The notes below the pieces were generated by a model. That model was not told the DNA's origin. It worked only from the letters and a program-made list of their open reading frames with translations, and did no database searches. The translations under genes were made by a program, and so were the position numbers. Shown piece by piece: positions 4,427-62,785 of a stretch of DNA of 64,000 bases. Origin of the DNA: Phaeocystidibacter luteus (GTDB lineage Bacteria; Bacteroidota; Bacteroidia; Flavobacteriales; Schleiferiaceae); contig NZ_WBVO01000009.1 of assembly GCF_008933115.1 (NCBI RefSeq), forward strand, positions 62,001-126,000, given 5' to 3'. Positions within the stretch are counted from its first letter, which is position 1. The number at the start of each line of letters is the position of its first letter.

Positions 4427-5737
4427 ATGAAGAATCTACTCCTTACACTTTTGGCCATCAATGTAGTAGCATGTTCTGGTCAGTCCGAGCTCTCTCAGCA
4501 GACTCCACCTGAAAATTCGGGTATTGCCGTTCTAATCAAAGAGGCTCCCGCATATCCAATGGGACCGTGTGAGCCGAGTATTGCCATCAATCTGAGTAAT
4601 CCGGCTAACATTGTTGCTGGGTCTATTCTCGATAGGGTGTACTATTCTAATGATTCTGGAAAGACATGGGTGACGGATGACCTACAGAGCTCTTATGGGG
4701 TTTGGGGTGATCCAGTAATTGTAAGTGATGCCAAGGGCCGATTCTTATTCTTCCACCTCAGCGATCCAACTGGAAAGAACTGGGCCAGTGAAGAAATTCT
4801 CGACCGCATTGTGTGCCAGTGGAGCGACGATGGTGGCGAAAACTGGAGCGACGGAAGTTACATGGGGCTCGATCACCCGAAAGATCAAGACAAAGAATGG
4901 GCGGCTGTAGACTTGCGAAACAACAACGTGTATTGCACATGGACCCAGTTTGATGATTACGGTTCGGAAGAAGATGAAGATCAATCGAACATCTTGTTCT
5001 CCATGAGTTCCGACGGCGGTGAAAATTGGAGTAAGGCCGTTCAAATTAACGAGAAGAGCGGCGGCTGTTTGGATGACGACAATACCACCGAAGGAGCTGT
5101 TCCAAGCGTTGGTCCGGATGGCGAGGTTTATGTGGCTTGGGCGTTGAGTGAAGAAATTTGGTTCGATAAGTCGCTAGATGGTGGTCAAACTTGGCTCGAA
5201 AAAGACATTAAAGTTGCGGATCAACCTGGAGGATGGGATGTGGACATTCCTGGGATTCAGCGAAGCAATGGTATGCCAGTTACAGGCTGCGATGTGAGTG
5301 AAGGTCCCAACAGAGGAACCGTATATGTAGTATGGAGCGACCAGCGTGTGGAGGATGACCCAATGGACATTTGGATAGCCAAGAGCACCGACAAAGGTGA
5401 AACTTGGAGTGAACCAATAAAGGTGAATCAAGATGAAACAAACCATGTGCAGTTTTTACCGTGGTTGGCGGTGGACCCAGTTACGGGAGATTTGCACGTG
5501 GTGTTCTACGACAGGAGAGCGCACGACGACGATAATACGGACGTATATGTGGCGAGTTCTTCGGATGGAGGAAACACATGGACGGAGCAACGCGTAAATG
5601 ACGAGAGCTTCCTACCAGTAGAATTTGTCTTCTTTGGCGATTACAACAACATCAGCGCCTATAACGGAATGGTTCGTCCGATTTGGACGGAATACCGCGG
5701 CGGCAAGTTGCAAGTTTGGACGGCTTTGATGGATTGA
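4427..5737 (+). CDS. Asp-box (BNR) repeat lipoprotein, sialidase-like beta-propeller
   Basis: The 436-aa product starts with a lipoprotein signal; the lipobox is VVAC, with the acylated Cys at residue 16. I chose the ATG at 4427 because the longer frame from 4373 puts 18 unrelated residues before the signal. At least six Asp-box motifs (S-x-D-x-G-x-x-W) are visible: SNDSGKTW, SDDGGENW, SSDGGENW, SLDGGQTW, STDKGETW and SSDGGNTW. This is the pattern of a six-bladed sialidase-type propeller. The catalytic residues of true sialidases are not evident, so I would not call it an enzyme. It is probably a surface or outer-membrane lipoprotein that binds or processes glycans or proteins (inference). 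Confidence 0.85.
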   Translation: MKNLLLTLLAINVVACSGQSELSQQTPPENSGIAVLIKEAPAYPMGPCEPSIAINLSNPANIVAGSILDRVYYSNDSGKTWVTDDLQSSYGVWGDPVIVSDAKGRFLFFHLSDPTGKNWASEEILDRIVCQWSDDGGENWSDGSYMGLDHPKDQDKEWAAVDLRNNNVYCTWTQFDDYGSEEDEDQSNILFSMSSDGGENWSKAVQINEKSGGCLDDDNTTEGAVPSVGPDGEVYVAWALSEEIWFDKSLDGGQTWLEKDIKVADQPGGWDVDIPGIQRSNGMPVTGCDVSEGPNRGTVYVVWSDQRVEDDPMDIWIAKSTDKGETWSEPIKVNQDETNHVQFLPWLAVDPVTGDLHVVFYDRRAHDDDNTDVYVASSSDGGNTWTEQRVNDESFLPVEFVFFGDYNNISAYNGMVRPIWTEYRGGKLQVWTALMD

Positions 5738-5754: not shown

Positions 5755-6414
5755 TTAAAATCCTATTTGCAACCCCATTACAGGTACCCAATAGAACTGA
5801 GTCTCTATGACTTCGTCGAAATTACCTGGGCCCTCACTAACTGTTGACTCAAACCGACTCCCTACCCCAAAATAGAATTCGGTACGCATTCCCCAAGTGG
5901 CTTCATACCTCGCGCCTAGAGCAATCGAGAACTGGTTGTACTTATACGCCTCTCCATCTTGTCCTGAAATGTTTCGGTTTAGGTCGTCATACCGGTACGT
6001 GCGTCGAGCGAAGTGCAACGCAGCAAACCCCTTCCATCGTTGGGAGAACGATGACAAGGTTACGTATTTCTTTACTCGAGTTAATAAGACTAACCCTATG
6101 CCTGGTTCCTTATAGTCGGGACCCCACGAGAAGAAATTATATTGAATGTTATTTCGGATTGCAGTTGGCCCGATTCCAACTTCTACTCCCCAATCATTGG
6201 ACTCTACCTGTAGCATGAAGGGATACGATCCCATGAAAATATCGGAGAGCAAGAAGGATAAGGTGACATCCCCTTTGCTATTAGTCGCTTTAGGATCTAC
6301 TTGGCTTTCATTAGTAATCCGCGCCATGCTCGAATCTGCCGCAATTGTAATTTGGGCATGCGAACTTGTAGCTAAGAACAACGCTATATAAAGGAAAGAG
6401 AGGAGCGTTTTCAT
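5755..6414 (-). CDS. Outer-membrane beta-barrel-like protein, module copy 1 (OMP1)
   Basis: 219 aa with a signal peptide (MKTLLSFLYIALFLATSSHAQ). The rest alternates short amphipathic strands with polar turns and ends in an aromatic-rich strand with terminal Phe (VPVMGLQIGF), as outer-membrane barrels do. A core segment, SDIFMGSYPFMLQV then WGVEVGIGPT, aligns by eye with the products at 8095-8787 (SDLLYGNIAFETEL, AGAGLT) and 11928-12611 (TEILAGGAPVFVQY, WAVEVGVGPT), so the three are paralogues. It is divergently transcribed from the 515-aa secreted protein at 6518. The function is unknown. Base and codon use look like the neighbours. Confidence 0.7.
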   Translation of the reverse strand: MKTLLSFLYIALFLATSSHAQITIAADSSMARITNESQVDPKATNSKGDVTLSFLLSDIFMGSYPFMLQVESNDWGVEVGIGPTAIRNNIQYNFFSWGPDYKEPGIGLVLLTRVKKYVTLSSFSQRWKGFAALHFARRTYRYDDLNRNISGQDGEAYKYNQFSIALGARYEATWGMRTEFYFGVGSRFESTVSEGPGNFDEVIETQFYWVPVMGLQIGF

Positions 6415-6517
6415 TTATTCAAGAGGTTTGGAGATAGAACTCGAAATTACTAATTTCCTAGAGTAGGCCTTTTACTTCGACTCCTGTACATACTATTCCC
6501 CTATTCTTCTCTCTAAT
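6415..6517. promoter_or_regulatory. Divergent promoter region of module copy 1
   Basis: This 103-bp gap drives OMP1 to the left and the 515-aa protein to the right. It contains TAGAACTCGA at 6435-6444, also present in the equivalent gap of copy 2 (8823-8832). Weak -7-like boxes flank it, TATCTCCA on the minus strand and TAATTTCC on the plus strand. The match to the Bacteroidota TAnnTTTG box is poor here; the call rests mainly on the shared core. Confidence 0.4.
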
Positions 6518-8065
6518 ATGTCTATCTCCATTAAAGTTCTGCTAGCGCTTCTATTTCTGCAAGCCTCCTTCAGTGATGTACTAGCCCAGAATCCTTCCGG
6601 ACTTCAATTGGAATGGGGCGCGGAAGTAGATCTTAGGATGACAGGCTATACAGATATTGCGCATATCGACGACCAGTTCATCTATCTCTACAATCACACA
6701 GTGGGCAATGGGTTTTCAAGTCCAAATTGGGAGTTCGTGGTACTTTACAGGTCAAGTCTGGAGGTGGCTTGGAAGTATCGAGGTGAGCCGAGAACTATTG
6801 AAGGAGAACCATTAGAAATTGTACAGGTAGACTGTGTTGATGGGGTCTTTCGCATTCTACTTTCTCATATCTCGCCTGAAACCGGTGGTATGAAACTACA
6901 TCTGATGGAAATCTCAGAAAATGGAATGTCCCAAGGCTATCTACCCCTTGCACACTTCTCCCTCAAATACGGGGATGATTCTGAAAAATGGCTCATCTCA
7001 GGTCTTGAAGGCTATCGGTCATTCGACTTCATATACAAGTATATCTATCAAGAGGGTACCGACTCCATACTTGAAATTCAGCGTTACGATAAAAGCTACA
7101 ATATCGTACGAGTGCGTGTCGACTTGATTCACAATCTGGACCACACAAGCTTGGTATCCTTGCTGCACTCGGATGAGGGTGAGCAATTCTTGATATTAGA
7201 ATATTCCTATGATGAGGCTACACATAATACTCTAGGAATATACAAGTACGACAACGAAGGTGTCAGTATATCCAGTTTCATAGACATCCCGGCCAGCGAA
7301 TGGTCGACCCATTGGTTTAACTTCAAGAACGGGAATCTCGAAATAGGAACGTTAGCAGTATTTGATGATGAAACGGCTAAAGCCTCAATTCAATCGGTCA
7401 GCACAACTGACTTAGAGCTGAGAGCAACCGACGCTGCGTTGGTTCCTCAGGTATTGATTGAACGCATGAAGGAAAGATGGAATCTCAACTCCCCTGAGGA
7501 TTCCCCATTTATTGTATCAAACGTCCGCAACACCAGCGATGGTGGGTCTATGATTACATTCCAAATTCAAATCCATGATTACAGGGAGGATCGAGAGGCG
7601 ATGGACATTTTTGGCACACATGATCCAGAATTGTACTTTATCCACTACATGAAAGACTTCATGATAGTGAAGGTAACCGATAGCTCAAAGGTTCAATGGT
7701 TTTCACACATCCCCTTAGATCAGCAAGCCTATGGAGTTCCGTGGTCAACCGGCGCTACATTCTTTAGCGATGCAGATCGACAGTATATCCTCTTAAATGA
7801 CGATGACGACAACTTAAAATCATGGGCAAGAACGTTTCCTAACATTGATTTCATAAGTTCAATGTCTATTCGAAATGCCAAAATTGTGCTTATTGCCATA
7901 GAGAACGATGGAACCGTTTACTACGAACATATTGATGACTCTCGGGATGAGGATAGTTTCACATTCGGTCCAAATGTTTCAATAGGAACTACGGATGGCG
8001 AGGCATACCTCCTTAGATACAATGAAAAAAAGCGTTTACAAAGACTTGAAGTTCGCAATGAATAA
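6518..8065 (+). CDS. Acidic secreted protein, module copy 1 (paralogue of 8866-10446 and 12761-14338)
   Basis: 515 aa with a signal peptide ending in SDVLAQ. No known domain is recognised. The sequence is a run of beta-strand-like segments with repeated short Trp/Tyr motifs, reminiscent of a beta-propeller (inference). The C-terminal third aligns with the two paralogues: a stretch ending in VKVTDSSKVQWFSHIPLDQQ, then YILLNDDDDNLKSW with its acidic loop, then NGTVYYEHI, then FGPNVSIGTTDGEAYLL. There is no T9SS sorting domain, so it probably stays in the periplasm or attaches to its partner barrel. It is paired divergently with OMP1 and ends 29 bp from the stop of convergent OMP2. Confidence 0.65.
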   Translation: MSISIKVLLALLFLQASFSDVLAQNPSGLQLEWGAEVDLRMTGYTDIAHIDDQFIYLYNHTVGNGFSSPNWEFVVLYRSSLEVAWKYRGEPRTIEGEPLEIVQVDCVDGVFRILLSHISPETGGMKLHLMEISENGMSQGYLPLAHFSLKYGDDSEKWLISGLEGYRSFDFIYKYIYQEGTDSILEIQRYDKSYNIVRVRVDLIHNLDHTSLVSLLHSDEGEQFLILEYSYDEATHNTLGIYKYDNEGVSISSFIDIPASEWSTHWFNFKNGNLEIGTLAVFDDETAKASIQSVSTTDLELRATDAALVPQVLIERMKERWNLNSPEDSPFIVSNVRNTSDGGSMITFQIQIHDYREDREAMDIFGTHDPELYFIHYMKDFMIVKVTDSSKVQWFSHIPLDQQAYGVPWSTGATFFSDADRQYILLNDDDDNLKSWARTFPNIDFISSMSIRNAKIVLIAIENDGTVYYEHIDDSRDEDSFTFGPNVSIGTTDGEAYLLRYNEKKRLQRLEVRNE

Positions 8066-8094
8066 TGTGAGCTTGACCTTTCGATAGCTGAACT

Positions 8095-8787
8095 TCAATA
8101 ATATCTAATCAGCCCAATACTAACTCCTACTCCGTAAGTCAGTGCATTAAAATCGCTGGTGCGTTCATCCCAACGCCATGAGCCATTACCTTCTGAGGCG
8201 TTGGCATACCGATGCAGTATTCTCCTGATTTCTGTAAACACATAGAGGTCTATCAAGAGCCGGTCGTTTACGTTGATATTAGTTCCCATCGTTGCCCTGA
8301 GGCCGTACATGTCATAGTTTCCGTCGTAGTTCTCAAGTTGTGGATGTTGACTAATTAGATCGTAATTCCTGAAGGTCATGCCCAGCGAACCGTACCATGA
8401 AGACTGCTCAATGGCATCTCCTAAGAGATGTGCCTTTATCTCAGCCTTGAAGCTGTAGCCCAATTGCTCACCAGTCCCATTCTCCGGAAAGGAATAGGGC
8501 AGCTCAAACGAACTGAGCGCATTTAGTGGCGTGAAGGTTAGACCAGCACCTGCGATTAGAGAGTAGTCATTTCCCAAACCCAATTCTGTTTCGAAGGCAA
8601 TATTTCCGTAGAGCAAGTCAGATACACAAATCTTGTACGCTACCGGAAACTCCGATTCTGTAAGAAGGGCAGCCGTTCCCTCCGTGGCTTTGTCTTGCCT
8701 GTTGACACTTACGTTCTGGGCTTCGAGACTAGAAGCCGCTATCATTAGCGTGAAGAGAATCATGTAGAATCGGTGAGAGCACTTCAT
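8095..8787 (-). CDS. Outer-membrane beta-barrel-like protein, module copy 2 (OMP2)
   Basis: 230 aa. The N-terminus MKCSHRFYMILFTLMIAASS ends in an LEAQ cleavage site. The mature part begins QNVSVNRQD, like the QxxIxxD starts of OMP1 and OMP3, and continues with SDLLYGNIAFETELGLG and AGAGLTFTPLN, the shared core of the family. Later strands end in the terminal GVGVSIGLIRYY. It is the most diverged of the three barrels but keeps the same length, order and genomic position. It faces the 526-aa protein across a 78-bp divergent promoter region. The function is unknown. Confidence 0.65.
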   Translation of the reverse strand: MKCSHRFYMILFTLMIAASSLEAQNVSVNRQDKATEGTAALLTESEFPVAYKICVSDLLYGNIAFETELGLGNDYSLIAGAGLTFTPLNALSSFELPYSFPENGTGEQLGYSFKAEIKAHLLGDAIEQSSWYGSLGMTFRNYDLISQHPQLENYDGNYDMYGLRATMGTNINVNDRLLIDLYVFTEIRRILHRYANASEGNGSWRWDERTSDFNALTYGVGVSIGLIRYY

Positions 8788-8816
8788 TTGCGAGGAGAAT
8801 AAATTGAGTTGTACCG

Positions 8817-8844
8817 CTAAAGTAGAACTCGATTTCTATTTTCG
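8817..8844. promoter_or_regulatory. Overlapping divergent -7 boxes, module copy 2
   Basis: The minus-strand -7 box is TACTTTAG (8817-8824 read on the minus strand) and the plus-strand box is TATTTTCG (8837-8844). Each differs from TAnnTTTG at one position. They lie 12 bp apart, so each promoter's upstream element would fall inside the other. The core between them contains AACTCGA, as in copy 1. No convincing -33 TTG is seen on either side. Confidence 0.45.
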
Positions 8845-8865
8845 TTTCTAATTAAACAGATTTAC

Positions 8866-10446
8866 ATGCTTCGCAATCTCGCACTCGCCTCCGGAATTTG
8901 CCTGTCAGGTCTCGCATTTTCACAGGGCAACCCCCTCCACTCCGTCTCCGCTTCACTCGATTGGGGTCCGCTTATCGAAATTGATGACATTTCAGATTAC
9001 GAAATCATTGAGACTGATGGAGATACCCTTTTCATAAAAGCCCTAAAGTCGGAAGGCTACCTTTCTAGAATGAGTTTGCAGCTCATCAAGATGAACAAAA
9101 ACACTTTTGACATTTTTTGGACGCAGACGGTGGTCGACGAGAAGTTTGCGGATGAATATCCTGAACTGAACGACTTCTACTATGTCGATGGAAGATTCAT
9201 GATTCTATCAAGCTGTTATCTCGACGACCAGGAGCAGTTCGTTCGACTTCGTCAGTTCGTGAATAATGATGGTTCCACAACGCCTTATGAAGTAATCGGA
9301 TCGATAAAGGCTGAAGATGAAGATGACGGCTATTTCTATTTGTACTTCGACGAAAACCGAGAGGAGTTCTTCTACAATACCTATCAGACCGAATACGACA
9401 AGGAAGAAGATTTACGTCAACATCACGTAACCATATTGGATTTCGATCTGAAGGTCCTCTTCGAATACGACCACACCTTCGATTACACTTACGAAAATTG
9501 TGGCCTTGAGGAAAAGGGCATGGACGCAGAGGGCAATTATTACTTTCTCTACAGCTACCCTAACCCGAGGTATGAGAACAACAATGACTTGCCGATGTAC
9601 CTCTACAGCATCATGCGCTTTGATCGTGGTACGTCTCTACTTGAAGAAGTCAAAATCCCAAGTAACGATTACAATCTCAAAACGCGTGATTTAATTCTCG
9701 ACAATAAAAACGACCAAATCGTATTTACGGGACTGTATGAAAACGAAAAATTCGACGGCCCACACGGCACCTTCTTTTTTAAGGTAGTCCAATCTACATG
9801 GGCTTTAGAATATTCAGAATTCACACCATTTGAACTTTCGTTACAGCGTGAATATTTGGATGATGACGACATCGAGGATGGCGATGGACTGGATGACAAT
9901 CTTGTTCTGAGAAGAGTGATTCGAAGAGGCGACGGCGGATTGCTCTGCTTATATCAAATCAACTATTACACGAAACGTAGAGTGCGAACGGAGAACGGCA
10001 GCTACTATGAATATACCTATGTCGACAACGACCTCATCGCCATTAACCACAATAGCAATGGAACCGTAGCATGGTCAAAGCGAATTCCAAAGGAATTTGT
10101 GGATGACACGCGCGCTTTTCAAGGTTTCTCCATTACAACCCTCAACGATAAGCTTTTCATCTTCTACTTGGATGATGAAGACAGCCAGGAATATTGGTCG
10201 GGCGAGGACGATGAAATTTCAGATGTGGATATGAATAGCGACACGTATGTTGCTATGGTGACTTTAGATATCTCCGGAAACATCACCTACGTTCAGATTG
10301 AGCAAGGTGAAGATGATGATGACCTTTGGTTTGCACCTCGTGCATCCATCGGAACCGGCAAGTCGAACGGCGAGCTCATCATGCTTCGTCGGGATGACGA
10401 TGATTTCGAAGAAATTCGAATTGGCCGCTTTCAGGCGGCGGACTAA
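8866..10446 (+). CDS. Acidic secreted protein, module copy 2
   Basis: 526 aa with signal peptide MLRNLALASGICLSGLAFSQ. It is rich in Asp and Glu, with several DDDxED runs (for example DDDDIEDGDGLDD near residue 330). The C-terminal third aligns with the copies at 6518 and 12761: NGTVAWSKRIPKEF, FIFYLDDEDSQEYW, GNITYVQIEQGEDDDD and APRASIGTGKSNGELIML. No domain of known function is recognised. A calcium-binding propeller or solenoid would fit the acidic loops, but this is inference. It is paired with OMP2 across a short divergent gap and followed by a strong terminator. Confidence 0.65.
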   Translation: MLRNLALASGICLSGLAFSQGNPLHSVSASLDWGPLIEIDDISDYEIIETDGDTLFIKALKSEGYLSRMSLQLIKMNKNTFDIFWTQTVVDEKFADEYPELNDFYYVDGRFMILSSCYLDDQEQFVRLRQFVNNDGSTTPYEVIGSIKAEDEDDGYFYLYFDENREEFFYNTYQTEYDKEEDLRQHHVTILDFDLKVLFEYDHTFDYTYENCGLEEKGMDAEGNYYFLYSYPNPRYENNNDLPMYLYSIMRFDRGTSLLEEVKIPSNDYNLKTRDLILDNKNDQIVFTGLYENEKFDGPHGTFFFKVVQSTWALEYSEFTPFELSLQREYLDDDDIEDGDGLDDNLVLRRVIRRGDGGLLCLYQINYYTKRRVRTENGSYYEYTYVDNDLIAINHNSNGTVAWSKRIPKEFVDDTRAFQGFSITTLNDKLFIFYLDDEDSQEYWSGEDDEISDVDMNSDTYVAMVTLDISGNITYVQIEQGEDDDDLWFAPRASIGTGKSNGELIMLRRDDDDFEEIRIGRFQAAD

Positions 10447-10465
10447 TCCATTCAATGGAAAGAGT

Positions 10466-10507
10466 GAACCTCTCGTTTTCATGAAAGCGAGAGGTTCCTC
10501 ATTTTTG
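10466..10507 (+). terminator. Rho-independent terminator after module copy 2
   Basis: GAACCTCTCG (10466-10475) pairs with CGAGAGGTTC (10487-10496), with further TTTC/GAAA pairing in the loop, followed by CCTCATTTTT. It ends transcription from 8866 before pepE. Confidence 0.8.
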
Positions 10508-10545
10508 CCCTACCTTATTGAGCCATGTAAAGCCAAAAGACATCT

Positions 10546-11244
10546 ATGCGACTACTCATCGTTTCTACCTCCTCCATCCACGGAAAACCGTACCTCACCT
10601 ATCTGGAAGACGAAGTGAAATCCTTCTTCCAAGGGAAGAAAATTCTCTTCGTTCCCTATGCACGTCCAGGTGGAATTTCATGGGATGAATACACCGCAAA
10701 GGCTTCCGAAAGGTTCACCGAATGGGGCTTCGAAATGACTGGGATACACACGCATGAAGACCCCATTAAAGCTTTAGCAGAGGCGGACGGCGTATTTACG
10801 GGTGGCGGAAACACCTTCGTGCTCGTCAAAACACTGTACGACCTTGGCTTGATGAAACCCTTAAAAGAAGCAGTTGAAAACGGCTTGCCGTACATGGGTT
10901 CAAGCGCTGGAAGCAACCTTACGGGGTTGACGGTTAGAACTACGAACGACATGCCAATTGTCTACCCTCCCAGCTTTGATGCCTTGGGTCTAGTACCTTT
11001 CAATATAAACCCGCATTATTTGGACCCAGATCCGAGTAGCACACATATGGGGGAAACCAGAGAAACCCGGATCAACGAGTTTCACCACTTTAATGACCAA
11101 CCTGTAATAGGTATCCGGGAAGGTTCTTGGTTGCGAAGAGAAGGCGACCAGCTTGAGTTGAAGGGGCCACATACGGCGCGCTTGTTCCGTAAGGGGTCAG
11201 CGGCGATAGAAAGAGAGCAGGGAGATTGGAGTGATTTGCTGTGA
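10546..11244 (+). CDS. pepE: Dipeptidase E (peptidase S51, alpha-aspartyl dipeptidase)
   Basis: At 232 aa this matches cytoplasmic peptidase E, which hydrolyses dipeptides with N-terminal aspartate. The nucleophile Ser120 lies in GSSAGSN. His157 (NPHYLDPD) and Glu192 (IREG) fall at exactly the residue numbers given for the Salmonella enzyme, and Asp135 is also present. GGGNT at 87-90 forms the oxyanion-side loop. There is no signal peptide. It stands alone: a terminator lies upstream and a repeat array downstream, between copies 2 and 3 of the envelope module. A TACCTTAT stretch at about 10514 is a weak -7 candidate. Confidence 0.92.
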   Translation: MRLLIVSTSSIHGKPYLTYLEDEVKSFFQGKKILFVPYARPGGISWDEYTAKASERFTEWGFEMTGIHTHEDPIKALAEADGVFTGGGNTFVLVKTLYDLGLMKPLKEAVENGLPYMGSSAGSNLTGLTVRTTNDMPIVYPPSFDALGLVPFNINPHYLDPDPSSTHMGETRETRINEFHHFNDQPVIGIREGSWLRREGDQLELKGPHTARLFRKGSAAIEREQGDWSDLL

Positions 11245-11285
11245 GGGGTGCCTCACACGGAGAAACAGAGGGCACGGAGGTTTCG

Positions 11286-11549
11286 CGTGGAGAGGTTTCT
11301 CGTGAAGAGGTTTCTCGCAGAGAATTTGAGCATTGCGTGGTGGAGTGAGTTCGCAGGGGGATGTGCGTGGTGGGTTTCGCGCAAATACGCTAAATGCAAA
11401 AACGCTAATTAAAATCCTTACGAGGTGATTCGTGCGTAAAAAAAGGGTACGAGTATATCTCGATAGCGGATCTAAATTCCGGATAGAAGGCATGTTGCTT
11501 TAGCTCATGCCGGTTATCAAAAATCTTATGCTTCATTTGAAGCTAGCTC
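11286..11549 (+). repeat. 168-bp-family repeat, unit 1 (with about 96 bp of extra sequence)
   Basis: It starts GTGGAGAGGTTTCTCGTGAA and ends with the palindrome GCTTCATTTGAAGC and AGCTC. Between them it carries an extra block including CGCAAATACGCTAAATGCAA, absent from units 2 and 3. The inner hairpin GGCATG...CATGCC has one base changed in the loop (AGCTC for AGCGC). Confidence 0.8.
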
Positions 11550-11717
11550 GTGGAGAGGTTTCTCGTGAAGAGGTTTCTCGCAGAGAACATGAGCATTACG
11601 TGGTGGAGTGAGCTCGCAGGGGATCAACGTGGCGTGATTCGAAATTCCGGGTAAAAGGCATGTTGCTTTAGCGCATGCCGGTTATCAAAAATCTTATGCT
11701 TCATTTGAAGCTAGCTC
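11550..11717 (+). repeat. 168-bp repeat, unit 2
   Basis: Complete unit. It has GAGAGGTTTCTC and AAGAGGTTTCTC near the start, then TGGTGGAGTGAGCTCGCAGG, hairpin GGCATG (11657-11662) with CATGCC (11674-11679), and the palindrome GCTTCA-TT-TGAAGC. It is nearly identical to unit 3. Confidence 0.85.
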
Positions 11718-11881
11718 GTGGAGAGGTTTCTCATGGAGAGGTTTCTCGCAGAGAATTTGAGCATTGCGTGGTGGAGTGAGCTCGCAGGGGATCAACGTGG
11801 CGTGATTCGAAATTCCGGGTAAAAGGCATGTTGCTTTAGCGCATGCCGGTTATCAAAAATATTGCGCGGTGGAGTGAGCTC
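11718..11881 (+). repeat. 168-bp repeat, unit 3 plus the start of a partial unit
   Basis: It matches unit 2 up to TATCAAAAAT (11851-11860). It then jumps to ATTGCGCGGTGGAGTGAGCT (11861-11880), which is an inner part of the unit, so the array ends in a partial copy. The palindrome GCTTCATTTGAAGC is missing here. Confidence 0.8.
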
Positions 11882-11927
11882 TTGTCGACCAGGATGTCAA
11901 CCATGAAGCTCTTCTCTCACCTGAGAA

Positions 11928-12611
11928 TTACAAAGAATACCCCACCATTACCCCAAAAGTTGGCCAAAAGTCACGTACCAAATCCGTTTCGGTAGCTCCA
12001 TCGCGATACACTCTGTTGAAGTAGGTCCATGACGGAGAATAGCCGCCGTATACTTCCATGTAGAAGTGAGACCCATAGTTGCGACGGTAGCCAATATTCA
12101 GGGTGAACTGATGGTAATTGATGTTGTCTTCTACAATGAAGGAGGCATCGTCCTGACTCACTCGGTTGTGATTTTTAAAGGTGTAACCCGCCGAGAAGAA
12201 ACCTCCACGTTTGGCCATAAATCCTTTGCGTCGATTTAAGTAGAGCTTTCCTCTAGAGAAGAATTCCCATCCCATTCCTGTGCCATTGTAGGTTTCGTCA
12301 AAACGCCTGTGCCCAACGAACGAATATGCGTAGCCCAAGTTCCAAAAGGTTGGCCCAACGCCTACCTCTACAGCCCAGTTTTTATCAAAATTGTACTGCA
12401 CAAAAACAGGGGCACCACCAGCGAGAATTTCGGTAGGAAGTAAAGCGACCGACCAACGTGGAAACTCCTCTTCCTCTTCTTCTTGAAGATCAGGTAATCC
12501 GCTTTGGCGGGTTTCAGAATTTGAGGAAGACTTATCCGAGCGGATGGTCAATTGCGCCATAGAGGGAACAGACAGACCAAGAATGGCCAGAGAGAGAAAG
12601 AGATATTTCAT
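11928..12611 (-). CDS. Outer-membrane beta-barrel-like protein, module copy 3 (OMP3)
   Basis: 227 aa with signal peptide MKYLFLSLAILGLSVPSMAQ. An acidic spacer (LPDLQEEEEEEFPRW) follows, then the shared core ILAGGAPVFVQY and WAVEVGVGPTFW. Later strands (FFSAGYTFKNHNRV, FTLNIGYRRNYG, FYMEVYGGYS) are typical of small outer-membrane barrels, and the protein ends FGVMVGYSL. It is closest by eye to OMP1. It faces the 525-aa protein across a 149-bp gap with -7 boxes on both strands. The 168-bp repeat array ends about 47 bp beyond its stop codon. The function is unknown. Confidence 0.7.
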   Translation of the reverse strand: MKYLFLSLAILGLSVPSMAQLTIRSDKSSSNSETRQSGLPDLQEEEEEEFPRWSVALLPTEILAGGAPVFVQYNFDKNWAVEVGVGPTFWNLGYAYSFVGHRRFDETYNGTGMGWEFFSRGKLYLNRRKGFMAKRGGFFSAGYTFKNHNRVSQDDASFIVEDNINYHQFTLNIGYRRNYGSHFYMEVYGGYSPSWTYFNRVYRDGATETDLVRDFWPTFGVMVGYSL

Positions 12612-12643
12612 TTTGAGAAAGCGTGAAAAATGTGCGTCGCGGC

Positions 12644-12681
12644 CAAAAGTAGTTACAATTTCAAATATTCTTCTATTTTTG
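12644..12681. promoter_or_regulatory. Divergent -7 boxes, module copy 3
   Basis: The minus-strand box TACTTTTG (12644-12651) and plus-strand box TATTTTTG (12674-12681) both match TAnnTTTG exactly. They are 22 bp apart, so each promoter's -33 region overlaps the other's -7 box. No clear TTG -33 element is seen. AAAGTAG, TTTC and TATTTT occur in the same order as in copy 2. Confidence 0.55.
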
Positions 12682-12760
12682 TCGCCTCGCCTCTCTCCTG
12701 TATTTCACATAGTGTTATATGACGCGCTATAATTGAGAGGTTTAACATTTAAACTCTCTC

Positions 12761-14338
12761 ATGAAGAAAATTCTTTCGCTTCTCTCTGTTTCATTGCTTA
12801 CCACATTTTGTTTTGCTCAAGTGCCTTCAGGTTTCAATACAAACTTGGAATGGAGTGACATTCACGAGATTGATGGAGAACAGACCATTGCGGGCGTCGA
12901 TTCACAATACATCTATGCTTTTGCTGTAAACAACGGTGAAGGTTGGGATAGAAGAAAGTGGTTCTTCACTAAGTACGACGTTGAAACGTTCGAGCAAGTA
13001 TGGCACATCGAGACACGTCCACTTGAATGGGGCGATGCCGAACTCGGGTTCGAGGAAGTTCGAATTATCAACGGAGAGTTTTTCGTTTTCTACAACGCAT
13101 TCGACAAGTATAAAGACCGCATGTCATTGCTTGGTCAGCATATCACTGCCGACGGCGACATGGGCCGACTTTCTCAACTCGAATACTATACAACGGACGA
13201 CGCCACTGAAGGCAAATTTCAAATTGAATGGAATGAAGACGGTGATGAATTTGTCGTAGTTGCCATTCCACAGTTCATAAGAGACGAACAAGCGAAGTTT
13301 AGAATCGTCTCATATGACCTTGCGTTCCAAAAGAAATGGGACAACCAGATTACGGTACGAACTCACCACGAGAACTTTCAGGTTATCGACTACGCTCTCC
13401 ACAAGGATGGCAACCTCTACGTTTTGGCTTACGACCTGCCCGATCTAGATCGCGGTGAAGAAGACGTAGAAGGAAAGTCAAATCAGCACTATGCCATCTA
13501 CAAGATAAATGAGAATACTACGAATGAACTCGAGGGGCTAGACCTCGAATTAGACGACTACTTCGTATCGAGCCCTTGGATTCACCTAGATGATCACAAC
13601 ATGCATGTTGGCGGGGTCGCTTCCATGGAATATTTCGATGAGGCAGATCTCACTTTCTTCATGACTATTGACTATGAAGGATTTGCAGTTGAAAGCGCCT
13701 CTTTTGATGAGATCCCTGAGCAGATCAAGGATCGCATGACTACTCGCTACGACATCTTTGATCGGTACGGCCGCCCGTTCAAAGTGATTCACTTTAGAAG
13801 AATCGATGACGGAGGAGCTATCCTAGTACAACAGTGCAGATATGAAGAGGTAGATTATGTAGTTACCGGCACTGTGATGGGAGTACCAGTATCCTACCGT
13901 AAAGTAATCACCAACCATTACGAAGATTACCTGATCGAAAGAATCGACTCAAATGGTCAACTTGTGTGGATGACTCACCTTCCATTGAACCAAGTTTTCG
14001 TTGAAAGCGACCTCTTCATGGGTGACCTTCTCGTAGTGAACAACGACAAATTCCATCTCATTTTCAATGATGATAAAGACAACATTGAGGAATGGGGTGA
14101 AGAAGATCCGTCAATCGACACGTATCAAGATTGGAGCATCCGCAGAGGAAACGTGGTAATGGTAACCATGGACACAAACGGAAACGTTTGGTACGAAGCT
14201 CTCACAAAAACCAAGGATGAAGAAGACGATACGTACTTCCTTCCCTCCGCAGGATTCTCTAAGCATCACGGCGAAGCTATAATCTTTAGTGCCGACGATG
14301 AAGATGTAAAAGTTGGTCGCCTGACCATTTCAGAATAA
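12761..14338 (+). CDS. Acidic secreted protein, module copy 3
   Basis: 525 aa with signal peptide MKKILSLLSVSLLTTFCFAQ. The mature N-terminus VPSGFNTNLEWSDIHEIDG parallels NPSGLQLEWGAEVDL of copy 1 and SASLDWGPLIEIDD of copy 2. C-terminal blocks shared with the other copies are NGQLVWMTHLPLNQ, HLIFNDDKDNIEEW, NGNVWYEAL and FLPSAGFSKHHGEAII. No known domain is recognised and no T9SS sorting tail is present. A fourth barrel gene follows 65 bp downstream on the same strand with only a weak hairpin between them, so the two are probably co-transcribed. Confidence 0.68.
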   Translation: MKKILSLLSVSLLTTFCFAQVPSGFNTNLEWSDIHEIDGEQTIAGVDSQYIYAFAVNNGEGWDRRKWFFTKYDVETFEQVWHIETRPLEWGDAELGFEEVRIINGEFFVFYNAFDKYKDRMSLLGQHITADGDMGRLSQLEYYTTDDATEGKFQIEWNEDGDEFVVVAIPQFIRDEQAKFRIVSYDLAFQKKWDNQITVRTHHENFQVIDYALHKDGNLYVLAYDLPDLDRGEEDVEGKSNQHYAIYKINENTTNELEGLDLELDDYFVSSPWIHLDDHNMHVGGVASMEYFDEADLTFFMTIDYEGFAVESASFDEIPEQIKDRMTTRYDIFDRYGRPFKVIHFRRIDDGGAILVQQCRYEEVDYVVTGTVMGVPVSYRKVITNHYEDYLIERIDSNGQLVWMTHLPLNQVFVESDLFMGDLLVVNNDKFHLIFNDDKDNIEEWGEEDPSIDTYQDWSIRRGNVVMVTMDTNGNVWYEALTKTKDEEDDTYFLPSAGFSKHHGEAIIFSADDEDVKVGRLTISE

Positions 14339-14348
14339 GTAACCTCAC

Positions 14349-14364
14349 AATGCCTTTGGGCATT
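14349..14364 (+). terminator. Weak hairpin between module copy 3 and OMP4
   Basis: AATGCC (14349-14354) pairs with GGCATT (14359-14364) around a TTTG loop. No U-tract follows, so it is more likely a processing or attenuation hairpin than a full terminator. Confidence 0.3.
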
Positions 14365-14403
14365 AACAATTGAAATTCAATTCGCTAACTAAATTCAAAT
14401 TCA

Positions 14404-15009
14404 ATGCGTAACATTTCTACACTCCTAGTGGTAGCTTGCCTAGCACTTTCATTCTCAGCTACGGCGCAACGTCGCGGTGGTGGCTCTTTCGACGTGCAGT
14501 TCAACATTGCGCCCGTTGCATTTGCAAACTATAGCTTCTATGCTGGCTATAACTTCGAAAAGGACATGACTGTTGGTACCGTTCTCGGTTACCAGAACCT
14601 TTCTATTTCTTCAACTACTAGCTCAGAAGAAGTTTCATACTCAGGCTTCTACATCGCTCCAGAATTCCGTTTCTATTTTGATCCTTCAAGAGAAGGAAAC
14701 GATGGATGGTACGCAGGTGGTTACTTGAAGTTCCGTTCATACGGTACTACAGGTGAGCCTTATGGCGGACTTGATCCAGACGGAAACTTCGTTGAGTACG
14801 ACCAGTCTAACAATGGCCTCGCACTCGGTATTCTCTCTGGTCGCATGTGGACAACCCGTTTCGGTCTTACTTTCGGAACTTGGGCTGGTCTCGGTTACTA
14901 CCTCTTCGACGTTGAGTCGACTTCAGTAGAACTTCAAGAGCAAGATATCACTACCACACTTCCTGCCTTGGACTTCCGTCTAGGTGTGAATGTTGGTTAC
15001 AGATTCTAA
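14404..15009 (+). CDS. Outer-membrane beta-barrel protein (OMP4)
   Basis: 201 aa with signal peptide MRNISTLLVVACLALSFSATAQ. The mature protein is all strands: FNIAPVAFANYSFYAGYNF, TVGTVLGYQNLS, GFYIAPEFRFYFD, WYAGGYLKFRSYG, and a last strand LGVNVGYRF with terminal Phe. It has the pattern (short acidic-free N-terminus, phenylalanine C-terminus) of DUF3575-like barrels. The N-terminal FxxxYxFxxGYNFEKDMTVG motif resembles FVQYNFDKNWAVEVG of OMP3, so distant kinship with OMP1-3 is possible. It is encoded on the same strand behind copy 3 and followed by a strong terminator. Confidence 0.7.
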   Translation: MRNISTLLVVACLALSFSATAQRRGGGSFDVQFNIAPVAFANYSFYAGYNFEKDMTVGTVLGYQNLSISSTTSSEEVSYSGFYIAPEFRFYFDPSREGNDGWYAGGYLKFRSYGTTGEPYGGLDPDGNFVEYDQSNNGLALGILSGRMWTTRFGLTFGTWAGLGYYLFDVESTSVELQEQDITTTLPALDFRLGVNVGYRF

Positions 15010-52437: not shown

Positions 52438-53799
52438 CTACTCAACTACCAATACCGGCTCAAGTGAAACACGTCCAGTAGCCTCAACGATCTTCAAGAA
52501 ATACAGCCCAGCTTCATTTGGCATATGGACTTCTACCTCCAAGCCTGACACGACTTCATGACCTACCTCTCTCCCACTGGCATCCAGTATGGAAATTTCA
52601 GCCATTTCAACTGAATGAATAACCCGTACTACGTCTCGTGTAGGATTTGGATAAACCACTAATTCAGAGCTGTTGAACTCGTCAGCACCAATACCCGTTA
52701 CTACCGAGAAATCAAAATGATGGTCTATGAAGTACTGGCCGACTTCAAAACGTAAAACCGTTGGAATTTCTCTTCCCAAGTCATTGGCTGTAGGAGTGAT
52801 CGTGAACTCCAGCCACTTCGCTCCTGAAATGGGGTAGGACCTTGTTACCATCCTCTGAAACCTTTGCACAATATTAAACGCTCTAGGGATGAACAGACCC
52901 GCATTAGAGTTCGTCGATAAGTGAAAGCCCACCGTATCGGCTCGATTAAGCCTGAAGTCATACCTCGATGGATGCGTAAACAATGAGTCTAATAGCAATA
53001 TCGGTTTATTCTGAGGCGGAGGCGCTACAAGTGAAACAAACACAGGCCAATCAATATTAATGACCGAATTAATCTGTCCCGATTGATCTCTTGAAACAAT
53101 CTTGTACCCAATGCTGAAGCCCGAATATGAGCCGCTGGGAGACGTGTATTGATATATCACCATCCCATCCGGTGTGAGAATCGTATTGGGTAAAGTCGCC
53201 ACCGAATCAACGAATGCAGAATTCAATGGAACCGGACTATTCTCATCATTCTCATATACTTGCCCAAACCTATAACTCACCAAATCTCCATCCTTGTCAT
53301 AGGCGCGAATCGACTGTGGGTAATCTCTATTCGATGCAATCACACTCGCCGGAGGTGCAATCATCTCTGGATGGGAGTTTCCGTTCCCAGTATTGAGCGT
53401 GCTCCAAATGAAAAGACCTTTTATTCCTGAACTCGGTGTAATATTCTGCATTCCATTAGGTCGACAACAAAGCTCATACGAGAACATATAATCGGTATTC
53501 GGTAGAAGCTGAACTTGTGCCACATATCTCCGCAGCTCCATTGAATAAGGTATGGGGCCATGCGGTATAGAACTTTCGAAAGCCAACGATACGGTAGATG
53601 TGGTTGTCGGGGAAACGATATCGACTGTCGGAGTGAAAATAGCTGTTCCACTATAAGTCGCATAAAACTCAATTCGGTAATTCAACCTACCGTTTGTTGC
53701 ACTACCGAGGTATTGAGCACGGAAATACCCTCCGCTGAAATGGGATCCGAATCCTGATAAAACAGAGAGTAGAGCGAAAAGAGTAAATAGCTTTTTCAT
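52438..53799 (-). CDS. Secreted protein with T9SS type A sorting domain
   Basis: 453 aa from the ATG at 53799, which begins the signal peptide MKKLFTLFALLSVLSGFG. The N-terminal part (SHFSGGYFRAQYLG, ELCCRPNGMQNITP, AYDKDGDLVSYRF) resembles the N-terminal module of the PKD protein at 60860-62785 (AHLVGGEITYECQGG, RCCRNGSIDNIP, ATDIDGDSLYYEF). The last 75 residues (VVYPNPTRDVVRVIHSVEM to LEPVLVVE) are a type A T9SS sorting domain, so it should be exported and attached or released at the surface. An adhesin-like role is possible but not shown. Confidence 0.8.
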   Translation of the reverse strand: MKKLFTLFALLSVLSGFGSHFSGGYFRAQYLGSATNGRLNYRIEFYATYSGTAIFTPTVDIVSPTTTSTVSLAFESSIPHGPIPYSMELRRYVAQVQLLPNTDYMFSYELCCRPNGMQNITPSSGIKGLFIWSTLNTGNGNSHPEMIAPPASVIASNRDYPQSIRAYDKDGDLVSYRFGQVYENDENSPVPLNSAFVDSVATLPNTILTPDGMVIYQYTSPSGSYSGFSIGYKIVSRDQSGQINSVINIDWPVFVSLVAPPPQNKPILLLDSLFTHPSRYDFRLNRADTVGFHLSTNSNAGLFIPRAFNIVQRFQRMVTRSYPISGAKWLEFTITPTANDLGREIPTVLRFEVGQYFIDHHFDFSVVTGIGADEFNSSELVVYPNPTRDVVRVIHSVEMAEISILDASGREVGHEVVSGLEVEVHMPNEAGLYFLKIVEATGRVSLEPVLVVE

Positions 53800-53966
53800 A
53801 AGAGAGCGGTTGTTCAATATTCAAGGGTAAGCATATAAAAACAATTCATAAAGATGAAATGAGGCAGAACTCCACCAGACTGAGTGACCGATTCCCCAAA
53901 CTCGCCTCATGCATGATTTCCAATAACCTTTCTCTCTGAGATTTCGGACAGCCACTTTTGATTCCC

Positions 53967-60860: not shown

Positions 60861-62785
60861 TAATTTTCATTTCTGATTATGGTGACGGGAGCGGTGAATA
60901 TCACCTCGAAGCCTTCTTGAATGATGTAGTAGTACGTTCCGTCTGGCAACGGATTGCCGCCATCATCCTGTCCGCGCCATTCTCCATTGTAGTCGTCCTC
61001 TTGGTAGACCACACTTCCCCATCGATTCATCAACACAAAACGAACCTGCCTACCATCGGTAATCTCTGGAATCTCCAGGTAATCATTTGATCCGTCTCCA
61101 TTAGGCGTAATCACATTTTGTAGATCGCTGTAATTAGGATTCGGCCACCCCTTGGGAACCATAATAACGGTGAGGGAATCAATACCCTGACAACCGTCGG
61201 CGGTGGTCACTTCCACGTAATACACGGTCGTATCGTTGATAGGACGAGTTAGCGTATTCGGATCCCGTTGGTCTGAGAAGTAGACCGGATTATCCGCATA
61301 CCAGTAATACTGCACACCACCACTAGCAGCCATGAGAACGTCGTCGCCTTCAACCACAATTTGATCTGGACCAGCATCGACCAACTGGTTAAATCGAACG
61401 ATCTCAACTGTATCGATTACGGAGTCGGTACAGGTGTTTGACTTCATGACGACCGTGACCGGGTACTTACCGGGTACCGGCCAGGTAATCCCAGGAGGGA
61501 ATGGTCCGTTGAAGTAAGTGATGTTGGGCGCTGGTGTGCCGCCAAAATACCATTCGTAGGTGGCACCGGGAGGAATGTTGTTTCCAAGAGCACCGAAGAA
61601 AATGTCCTGTACATTGAAGCATACACTACCTTGGAAGATACCCCACTCAAGCTCCGGAGATTCATATATCTCAAAGACTTCAAAGACGGTATCGGAGCAC
61701 TGTGTCCCCGGATTGGTAACGAGCATTACTGTATAGATACCTGGAGCATTATACGTAAACACCGGATTGGCTGCATAAGAGGTATCCGTGAGGGAAGTTG
61801 TATCGCCAAAATCCCAGAAGTAGCTGTTGCCGTTGGAAGACTCGTTCGTGAATTGAAGTTCGCGGCCTGAGCAGAAAAGAGAACTATCTTCCATTTGAGT
61901 GACCATATCACTTACAACGTTGCGCACGCATGGACTCACATTAAACTGGAAGTCGCGACGGACTGTCGTTTCAAGCATTCCGTTGCTGAAGCTCGTCACG
62001 CAAATACCCACTACATACTGCCCTTGAGTACTGGCCTCGCCGTAAATGATACCCGTGAGGCTATCAATCTTAATCTGAGGTGAGCTCGGAATTGGGTTCT
62101 CAAATGTTTGAGGGGCAATGAATGGAATAGACTGGTAAGGTGGTGGCAAAGCAACTGGCGATGGATTCGACGAGCTACCTCCATGAAGAATTTCACAAAA
62201 CTCATAGTAGAGAGAGTCTCCATCAATATCCGTGGCTGAGGCATCGATATTGAGCGGCTCGTTTGCGCAAATCACGATGGGTGGCGTGGCCGCAAATTGA
62301 GGTGAAGATCCACAAACGTCGTTCGGTGGAACGCGCACCGTATACGTATTTCCCCAGCTACCAGAGTTAGGAATGTTATCAATCGAACCGTTTCGACAGC
62401 AGCGTTGCCATGTGATGTCGTATCCGTCTGGGCTCGACGGCAAAGTGATAACCGCCTCGTAATCGGCATACTCGGTACATAGTCCAGCCGGGATGGTAAG
62501 GCAAGGGTCCCCTGAATTCACTGGAACTTGGTTGATTGTACCTACTGGAGTATTGGGGGTAGCGCTTACAAATGCGCCCGTGGTACCGTTAAAAACGCGA
62601 ATGGAAATAGTTGGGTCGAACGGCGCACCGCCACCGGCGCAATCGCGGTACACGCGAACTCTGACGAGGTAATTGTTTCCGCCTTGACACTCATAGGTTA
62701 TCTCTCCACCCACCAAGTGAGCGGCGAAGGTCGAGAAGCTGAGTAGCAGGGCAAAGCACGCAATGAGGGGGCGCGTTCTAGCCAT
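60860..62785 (-). CDS. Secreted PKD-domain protein with T9SS type B sorting domain
   Basis: 641 aa. Signal peptide MARTRPLIACFALLLSFSTF. The N-terminal module AHLVGGEITYECQGG, then RCCRNGSIDNIP and ATDIDGDSLYYEF, is shared with the protein at 52438. Two PKD-like folds follow (YFWDFGDTTSL, YEWYFGGTPAP), then an Ig-like segment (YYWYADNPVYFSDQRDPNTL). The last 90 residues (VITPNGDGSNDYLEI, FVLMNRWGSVVYQEDDYNG, LPDGTYYYIIQ) are the gliding-motility-associated type B sorting domain. It should be carried to the surface by type IX secretion, where it may act as an adhesin (inference). Confidence 0.9.
   Translation of the reverse strand: MARTRPLIACFALLLSFSTFAAHLVGGEITYECQGGNNYLVRVRVYRDCAGGGAPFDPTISIRVFNGTTGAFVSATPNTPVGTINQVPVNSGDPCLTIPAGLCTEYADYEAVITLPSSPDGYDITWQRCCRNGSIDNIPNSGSWGNTYTVRVPPNDVCGSSPQFAATPPIVICANEPLNIDASATDIDGDSLYYEFCEILHGGSSSNPSPVALPPPYQSIPFIAPQTFENPIPSSPQIKIDSLTGIIYGEASTQGQYVVGICVTSFSNGMLETTVRRDFQFNVSPCVRNVVSDMVTQMEDSSLFCSGRELQFTNESSNGNSYFWDFGDTTSLTDTSYAANPVFTYNAPGIYTVMLVTNPGTQCSDTVFEVFEIYESPELEWGIFQGSVCFNVQDIFFGALGNNIPPGATYEWYFGGTPAPNITYFNGPFPPGITWPVPGKYPVTVVMKSNTCTDSVIDTVEIVRFNQLVDAGPDQIVVEGDDVLMAASGGVQYYWYADNPVYFSDQRDPNTLTRPINDTTVYYVEVTTADGCQGIDSLTVIMVPKGWPNPNYSDLQNVITPNGDGSNDYLEIPEITDGRQVRFVLMNRWGSVVYQEDDYNGEWRGQDDGGNPLPDGTYYYIIQEGFEVIFTAPVTIIRNEN

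Follow-up and report, generated by a model that had tools for sequence, protein, structure and literature searches.

The DNA considered here is a stretch of 64,000 nucleotides from Phaeocystidibacter luteus (Schleiferiaceae), referred to as the window, and the subject is a two-gene unit which it contains in three copies. Each copy consists of a gene for a small predicted outer-membrane β-barrel on the minus strand, head to head with a gene for a large secreted protein, a predicted β-propeller, on the plus strand. Three such pairs and a fourth barrel had been reported in a sequence-only reading, and all seven open reading frames (ORFs) were confirmed with the positions, lengths and strands given there. 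Barrel 1 (5755..6414, minus strand, 219 aa) is a predicted outer-membrane β-barrel with a signal peptide and a mature N-terminal Gln. A region of 103 bp (6415..6517) lies between its start codon and that of propeller 1 (6518..8065, plus strand, 515 aa), which is assigned as a secreted β-propeller by homology and is without a Pfam or NCBIfam match. Barrel 2 (8095..8787, minus strand, 230 aa) has a sub-threshold match to Pfam OMP_b-brl (E 0.008) and is separated by 78 bp (8788..8865) from propeller 2 (8866..10446, plus strand, 526 aa). The third pair is formed by barrel 3 (11928..12611, minus strand, 227 aa) and propeller 3 (12761..14338, plus strand, 525 aa), with 149 bp between them (12612..12760). 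Pairs 1 and 2 are adjacent, and pairs 2 and 3 are split by pepE (10546-11244), so that the three pairs are not contiguous. The fourth barrel, of the DUF3575 type (14404..15009, plus strand, 201 aa), comes 65 bp after propeller 3 and is read in the same direction, and synteny shows that it accompanies pair 3 in the congener G002 as well.

In an all-against-all alignment the large proteins proved to be homologous, with blastp E-values of ~1e-30 for copies 1 and 3, 1e-21 for copies 2 and 3 and 5e-7 for copies 1 and 2 (Smith-Waterman Z of 49, 36 and 18, respectively, against 200 shuffles). The kinship proposed for the barrels is clear for barrels 1 and 3 (Z 17.5) and weaker for barrel 2, which reaches Z 9.8 with barrel 3 and only 3.8 with barrel 1, where the score of 53 is below the best of 200 shuffles, 54. 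Both barrel 1 (E 1e-51) and barrel 2 (E 2e-58) are matched by the hidden Markov model (HMM) of the barrel family. The fourth barrel remains at shuffle level with the other three (Z 0.9-1.5). Profile-profile comparison with the family barrels (hhalign E 2e-7, probability 94%, 121 columns, the fourth-barrel side being two sequences) suggests a remote relative, and the protein was also recovered by iterated HMM searches, the E-values of which refer to small gene sets. It does not represent a further copy of the unit: it lies behind propeller 3 and shares its strand, is tied to the other barrels by profile similarity only, and is 72% identical between congeners as against 30% for barrel 3.

The barrel-core strings SDIFMGSYPF, SDLLYGNIAF and TEILAGGAPV are exactly as had been described. 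The C-terminal blocks of the large proteins are present, with motifs that are approximate and not exact. The NGxVxW block reads SSKVQW, NGTVAW and NGQLVW in propellers 1 to 3, the IxNDDxDN block LLNDDDDN, FYLDDEDS and IFNDDKDN, and the GEAxxL block GEAYLL, GELIML and GEAIIF. Acidity, which had been taken as a trait of the partner, turned out to be a trait of the genus. The window propellers carry net charges of -7.8, -12.0 and -11.2 per 100 aa, and strong acidity (-7.8 to -12.3) is confined to the window's genus, the median of 136 homologues being +0.6. The neighbouring secreted BNR-repeat protein is equally acidic (-10.8), and salt adaptation is perhaps the cause in both.

The divergent pairing is conserved in related genomes. 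A family-wide count over 88 genomes was made with 80 of 110 propeller rows and 73 of 87 barrel rows, a strong barrel match being one of at least 150 bits. A propeller lies within 400 bp of 51 of the 53 strong barrel matches, the three in the window included; the nearest propeller is divergent in 48, convergent in three and absent within 400 bp in two. Barrel 2 of the window, one of the convergent cases, at the same time faces propeller 2 divergently. Of the two barrels without a propeller, that of G024 is an additional one in tandem with another barrel, and that of G081 is explained by a contig break: the propeller reaches the end of a 5138-bp contig, and 62 bp separate the barrel from the end of another, of 12946 bp. 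The median gap in 50 divergent cases is 79 bp between HMM ends; the genes of relatives were called by our own ORF picker, with approximate start codons. Part of the barrel family was assembled from genes next to propellers, but the search itself covered whole genomes and was able to show unlinked barrels; at 150 bits or more it showed none beyond these two exceptions.

From the side of the propeller, 136 loci were counted (at least 430 aa and 60 bits, identical last 200 residues counted once), chosen by their matches and not at random. A barrel is present within 450 bp in 54 of these, with 41 divergent, eight barrel-then-propeller on one strand and five convergent arrangements; propeller 1 of the window is listed as convergent and is also divergent. 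The eight one-strand cases are distant loci with gaps of 2-37 bp, and their tandem barrels are homologous to the divergent barrels (hhalign E 2e-23). A quick tree of 67 propellers, with long branches, placed 13 of 14 divergent cases within one group of 20 rows, the other 47 rows comprising 37 unpaired, eight tandem, one convergent and one divergent. The sites of the pair also differ: its neighbours may be queA and rlmN, an Mpl-like gene, or a BNR gene on one side and pepE on the other (queA, rlmN and Mpl being what we take these genes to be, from the starts of their proteins). As the pair is kept at several unrelated chromosomal sites, the association is more than conserved synteny. Barrel and partner thus form a lasting unit, as had been supposed, kept across genomes, layouts and sites, and a propeller of the Schleiferiaceae/Cryomorphaceae-type clade usually has a barrel of its own.

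Two trees, one of 54 propellers and one of the barrels paired with them, gave the same groupings for the copies in the window, namely (1,(3,G002)) and (2,G001). The support is 100/98 and 100/99 for the propellers, and 100/98 and 95/87 for the barrels. These matching groupings indicate that the unit was duplicated as a pair, in agreement with the sequence-only reading. The five propeller copies of the window's genus form one group (100/99). The congener G002 has one pair and the fourth barrel, while G001 has one pair of the copy-2 type, convergently arranged at the site known from the window, with the BNR gene on one side and pepE on the other. Two duplications of the unit, combined either with losses from the congeners or with a gain in the line of the window, explain this pattern. 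A small expansion of its own, with two barrels and two propellers, is found in G006.

An AlphaFold2 model of propeller 3, with 20 aligned propellers as input, consists almost entirely of strand (mean predicted local distance difference test score, pLDDT, 86.0; predicted template modelling score, pTM, 0.83), and its strand list fits about eight blades. Foldseek placed several kinds of propeller among the 50 matches listed, with modest global fits (TM-score up to 0.40 by query). In a second look with VIA-align, in which Z differences within 1 are ties, the EMC1 propeller was at the top (Z 17.6, root-mean-square deviation (rmsd) 4.7, 349 aligned), with IFT-A (Z 16.5), WDR41 propellers (Z 16.0) and chains of BamB (Z up to 15.8, rmsd 4.0, 316 aligned) behind it. 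The propellers of EMC1-N and BamB are eight-bladed. Because EMC1 and several WD40-type propellers score equal to or above BamB, the fold says little about function. The model of barrel 3 is an 8-stranded barrel (mean pLDDT 80.7, the first 50 residues poorly predicted) with OprF-N, OmpW, CarO and OmpA as nearest folds. For both proteins the VIA-align lists re-score the matches of Foldseek itself, and families missing there are not ruled out by them.

Thirteen propellers, three from the window and ten from relatives, gave no match above the cut-off in Pfam or NCBIfam, and the window proteins gave none in PHROGs or PADLOC. The propeller is therefore an unnamed family as far as these four libraries go, in line with the sequence-only reading, in which no named system with this layout was known. 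A defence system and a phage protein, both considered for the window proteins, were rejected on the absence of PADLOC and PHROGs matches, respectively. A weak sub-threshold match links propeller 3 to the N-terminal domain of PorU (22.8 bits, cut-off 40). Searches of PDB sequences with the propeller and barrel profiles returned chance-level matches only (best E 0.17 and 1).

The export signals are uniform. The first residue behind the signal peptide is Gln in all of 19 aligned barrels and in nearly all of 20 aligned propellers, as the Q-rule describes for substrates of type I signal peptidase in Bacteroidetes (PMC10653852). The propellers have no lipobox when read by eye, the residue after the signal peptide being Gln and not Cys in nearly all of the 20 aligned. 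Type IX sorting domains, of the C-terminal type A or B, were absent from the 13 propellers in Pfam and NCBIfam. The same Pfam library found Por_Secre_tail in the window protein at 52441-53817 and CHU_C in that at 60863-62785, the latter also with PKD domains, and the genome therefore appears to use both kinds of sorting domain. The simplest reading of these signals is that the propeller stays in the periplasm.

The explanation that is favoured, at a probability of roughly 0.45, is that a soluble propeller, probably periplasmic, docks on an outer-membrane barrel, in an arrangement like that of PorP and PorE but without their sequence features. Each pair would encode a two-part outer-membrane assembly. 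The small gene would supply an 8-stranded outer-membrane barrel of the DUF3575/OmpW-like type, and the large gene a Sec-exported, soluble and non-lipidated β-propeller of about eight blades, both folds being predicted from models. The propeller would most likely remain in the periplasm and dock on the periplasmic side of its barrel, the two forming an outer-membrane-tethered scaffold; physical contact, periplasmic site and scaffold role are what we infer for them. In the genus of the window the pair was duplicated and has diverged.

The closest working analogue found for such an arrangement is PorP with PorE. PorP is a barrel, and PorE is an outer-membrane-associated periplasmic protein, predicted to be a lipoprotein, with a propeller domain, as described in the relevant sections of PMC9143113 and PMC5053529. 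The likeness lies in an outer-membrane barrel with a propeller-bearing partner. However, no PorP/SprF model was matched by the four window barrels in Pfam or NCBIfam (E up to 1), nor in Pfam by any of 19 family barrels (E up to 0.01). The 13 propellers likewise show no TPR or OmpA_C match in Pfam, even below threshold, and unlike PorE they have no lipobox by eye.

Several findings weigh against a barrel-docked periplasmic propeller. The propeller could reach the cell surface by another route. No recognised barrel neighbours the propeller in 82 of the 136 loci, and the propeller can therefore work without one. Lone barrels without a propeller also occur, for example in G014, on contig C35 of G006 and among several of the weaker barrel matches, only four of 20 of which are beside a propeller; twelve regions around such weaker matches yielded one further divergent pair (G065, 320 bp) and several lone barrels. 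The five copies of the genus do not form a single group in the barrel tree, where the fourth barrel joins the copy-2 group at weak support (91/41); in addition, window copies 1 and 2 were flagged by the tree program as long branches, and several rows as odd in residue make-up. Matching of charge between the barrel tail and the propeller was rejected over 54 pairs (rho -0.16, p 0.24), and the whole barrel gave no correlation either (rho 0.08, p 0.56). The conserved regions of the propeller are alike in paired and unpaired members, so that no barrel-specific contact surface is apparent.

Two candidate contact elements were not upheld. A docking strand at the N-terminus of the barrel, Q-x-V-x-V-[KR]-[KR], is present in many divergent pairs, but strong conservation is limited to its Gln; over the eight residues at the mature N-terminus conservation is 0.339 against an alignment mean of 0.309 (31 barrels), and tandem-type barrels mostly lack the pattern. 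A propeller hairpin at 353-395 was considered as a barrel-binding arm. It has a conservation of 0.397 in 28 paired rows (0.341 and 0.355 elsewhere) and 0.375 in 57 unpaired rows (0.31 and 0.337 elsewhere), and is thus equally conserved without a barrel, in a sample gathered partly by the hairpin's own pattern and biased by this.

The pair has diverged rapidly in the window's genus. Syntenic neighbours have a median identity of 77% between the window and G002 (six genes, 62-86%) and 76% between the window and G001 (11 genes, 51-86%). The corresponding values are 30% for barrel 3, 52% for propeller 3, 29% for barrel 2 and 33% for propeller 2, with 72-74% for the secreted BNR neighbour and the 72% of the fourth barrel. 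Across 18 locus comparisons the pair genes are at least 25 points below the neighbour median in ten and show little or no gap in eight, and faster divergence was rejected as a rule for the whole family; it therefore holds for the window's genus and for some others. The comparisons without a gap are mostly between close relatives, and they also include the genus of G025, G033 and G007 (neighbour medians 64-85%). There, G025 against the other two gives 64-73% for neighbours, 59% for barrels and 67-69% for propellers. The ratio of nonsynonymous to synonymous substitution rates (dN/dS) lies at 0.00-0.093 for both genes wherever an estimate was possible, similar to that of the neighbours (12 locus pairs from close relatives of other genera, with many dS values saturated or not computable). 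Both genes are therefore constrained in these relatives, and no arms race or diversifying selection was seen in them. The copies might have specialised, perhaps for different ligands as the sequence-only reading proposed, and the long-term divergence might reflect a change of partners or ligands.

This divergence bears on a doubtful alternative, namely that the propeller is a surface receptor or coat which binds ligands or covers the cell, with the barrel as its anchor or export partner. It would follow the proposal for Bt1926 and Bt1927 of Bacteroides, an 8-stranded barrel and a phase-variable S-layer surface lipoprotein in the accounts given of them (PMC12578637, PMC12118408). The pair genes, 29-52% identical between congeners where the neighbour medians are 76-77%, agree with such a role, as does this precedent (PMC12578637), in which a small 8-stranded barrel is likewise encoded with a larger exported partner; in the window the eight strands are those of the model of barrel 3. 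Three of the four loops that would be extracellular by analogy are also less conserved than the alignment mean of 0.309 (L2 0.226, L3 0.176 and L4 0.214), but loop L1 is conserved (0.382), and the loops are matched in variability by the periplasmic turn T2 (0.173) and by residues 28-48 of the tail (0.177). Bt1927 is described as a surface lipoprotein, whereas the propeller is predicted to be soluble and has neither a lipobox by eye nor a type A or B sorting domain, although the positive controls were found. The low dN/dS in close relatives of other genera gives no sign of an arms race there.

The place of BamB among the nearest folds raises another possibility, which is unlikely, that the propeller is a dedicated assembly factor: a lipid-free BamB-like protein which would help to fold or insert its cognate barrel as a private chaperone. 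The window's genome has no match to TIGR03300, the BamB model, over the cut-off (best 22.7 bits), and both genes branch alike within the genus. However, EMC1 and several WD40-type propellers fit the model as well or better, BamB is a lipoprotein and the propeller is not, and a recognised barrel is often missing beside it (82/136). The 13 propellers have no TIGR03300 match at E up to 1 and are about 500 aa long, compared with the 377 positions of that model. Whether any Bacteroidota possess BamB is called not clear in the passage of PMC12578637 on this point, and a word search of the F. johnsoniae paper on the β-barrel assembly machinery (PMC12611786) returned neither "propeller" nor "BamB". 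Equally unlikely is a link of regulation only, in which the two genes are co-regulated from one intergenic region and the proteins make no contact. The compact head-to-head layout, with its median gap of 79 bp in 50 divergent cases, speaks for it, but the link survives changes of layout, to tandem and convergent, and changes of site. No clear common promoter motif is present: TAnnTTTG occurs in four of 33 divergent regions towards each gene, without clear enrichment over simple base shuffles (mean 1.2, maximum 6). A more far-reaching proposal, slightly less probable still, is that of Bacteroidota-specific outer-membrane machines, in which an undescribed family of lipid-free BamB-like propellers forms cognate complexes with private barrels. 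Each pair would then work on its own as a station for assembly or transport, and duplication and re-specification would act on the whole pair.

Two further known groups invite comparison. Small barrels of the DUF3575/OmpW-like type share the barrel fold; the fourth barrel scores over the cut-off of DUF3575 (Pfam PF12099; 33.3 bits, cut-off 21.1), which five of 19 family barrels match at E up to 0.01, while barrels 1-3 have no match at E up to 1. BamI is also a propeller partner at the outer membrane of Bacteroidota, but PMC12578637 describes a six-bladed propeller with an N-terminal domain in addition and suggests that the protein is a surface lipoprotein. The propeller-alignment profile found no credible match among PDB sequences, in a copy of the PDB for which the presence of BamI is unverified. 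Barrel-partner complexes unlike those of E. coli have recently been obtained from Bacteroidota outer membranes (PMC12578637 and PMC12611786, in the parts on these complexes). The barrel-propeller pair is not named in the titles or abstract openings of the open-licence papers searched.

The propeller family is Bacteroidota-wide and wider than the barrel, and is mostly without a recognised neighbouring barrel. In all distribution figures the window's own genome is counted. A profile of the three window propellers matched in 27 of 60 genomes (E up to 0.001). A profile of 20 propellers matched in 69 of 88 genomes of the window's family (E up to 1e-5), some of the others being incomplete, in 82 of 344 genomes of the order and in 38 of 392 sampled genomes of the phylum (both E up to 1e-8). 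A scan of named genomes, biased by its single search pattern, that of the propeller hairpin itself, gave metagenome-assembled genomes of Cryomorphaceae, Schleiferiaceae and Owenweeksia, Crocinitomicaceae, Brumimicrobium mesophilum, a metagenome-assembled genome of Cyclobacteriaceae and others among the best 80 of 134 confirmed loci. The strain JCM 14063 of B. mesophilum, a cultured relative, has a barrel-propeller pair in tandem order (L146).

None of the libraries searched has a name for a protein family of this breadth. That it is tightly linked to a single kind of barrel within one clade offers an experimental handle, a partner to pull down. A single genome provides matched and mismatched pairs for tests of the interface, and the clade provides a natural series of barrel gain and loss.

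Some features of the surroundings and of related loci can be added. The BNR-repeat protein at 4427-5737 of the window adjoins pair 1 and has a lipoprotein-like signal and a Pfam BNR_2 domain. It also has an odd match to Pfam Tli3, an immunity protein of the type VI secretion system (50.2 bits), perhaps through a common propeller fold. At the lone barrel of G014 (L225, C27:80000-92000), between queA and rlmN, the propeller gene has apparently been lost, since the congener G028 has both barrel and propeller there. Three barrels flank one propeller gene at L088:3482-7412, a local expansion of the barrel side. A second propeller locus exists in the same family (L228, G065 C21:36000-50000; L051, G028 C9; L239, G066 C109). 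It consists of tandem propeller genes, a gene for 674-701 aa and a 173-aa protein, to which some genomes add an aminotransferase-like gene and a barrel; in G064 and G016 the 173-aa gene is accompanied by the barrel alone. In G029 and G062 (L232:3078-4631 and L233:3832-5385) a 517-aa secreted protein overlaps tail to tail with a weak family barrel. Its alignment with the propellers is near full length (hhalign E 0.0038, probability 8.8%), and it may be a very remote relative of them.

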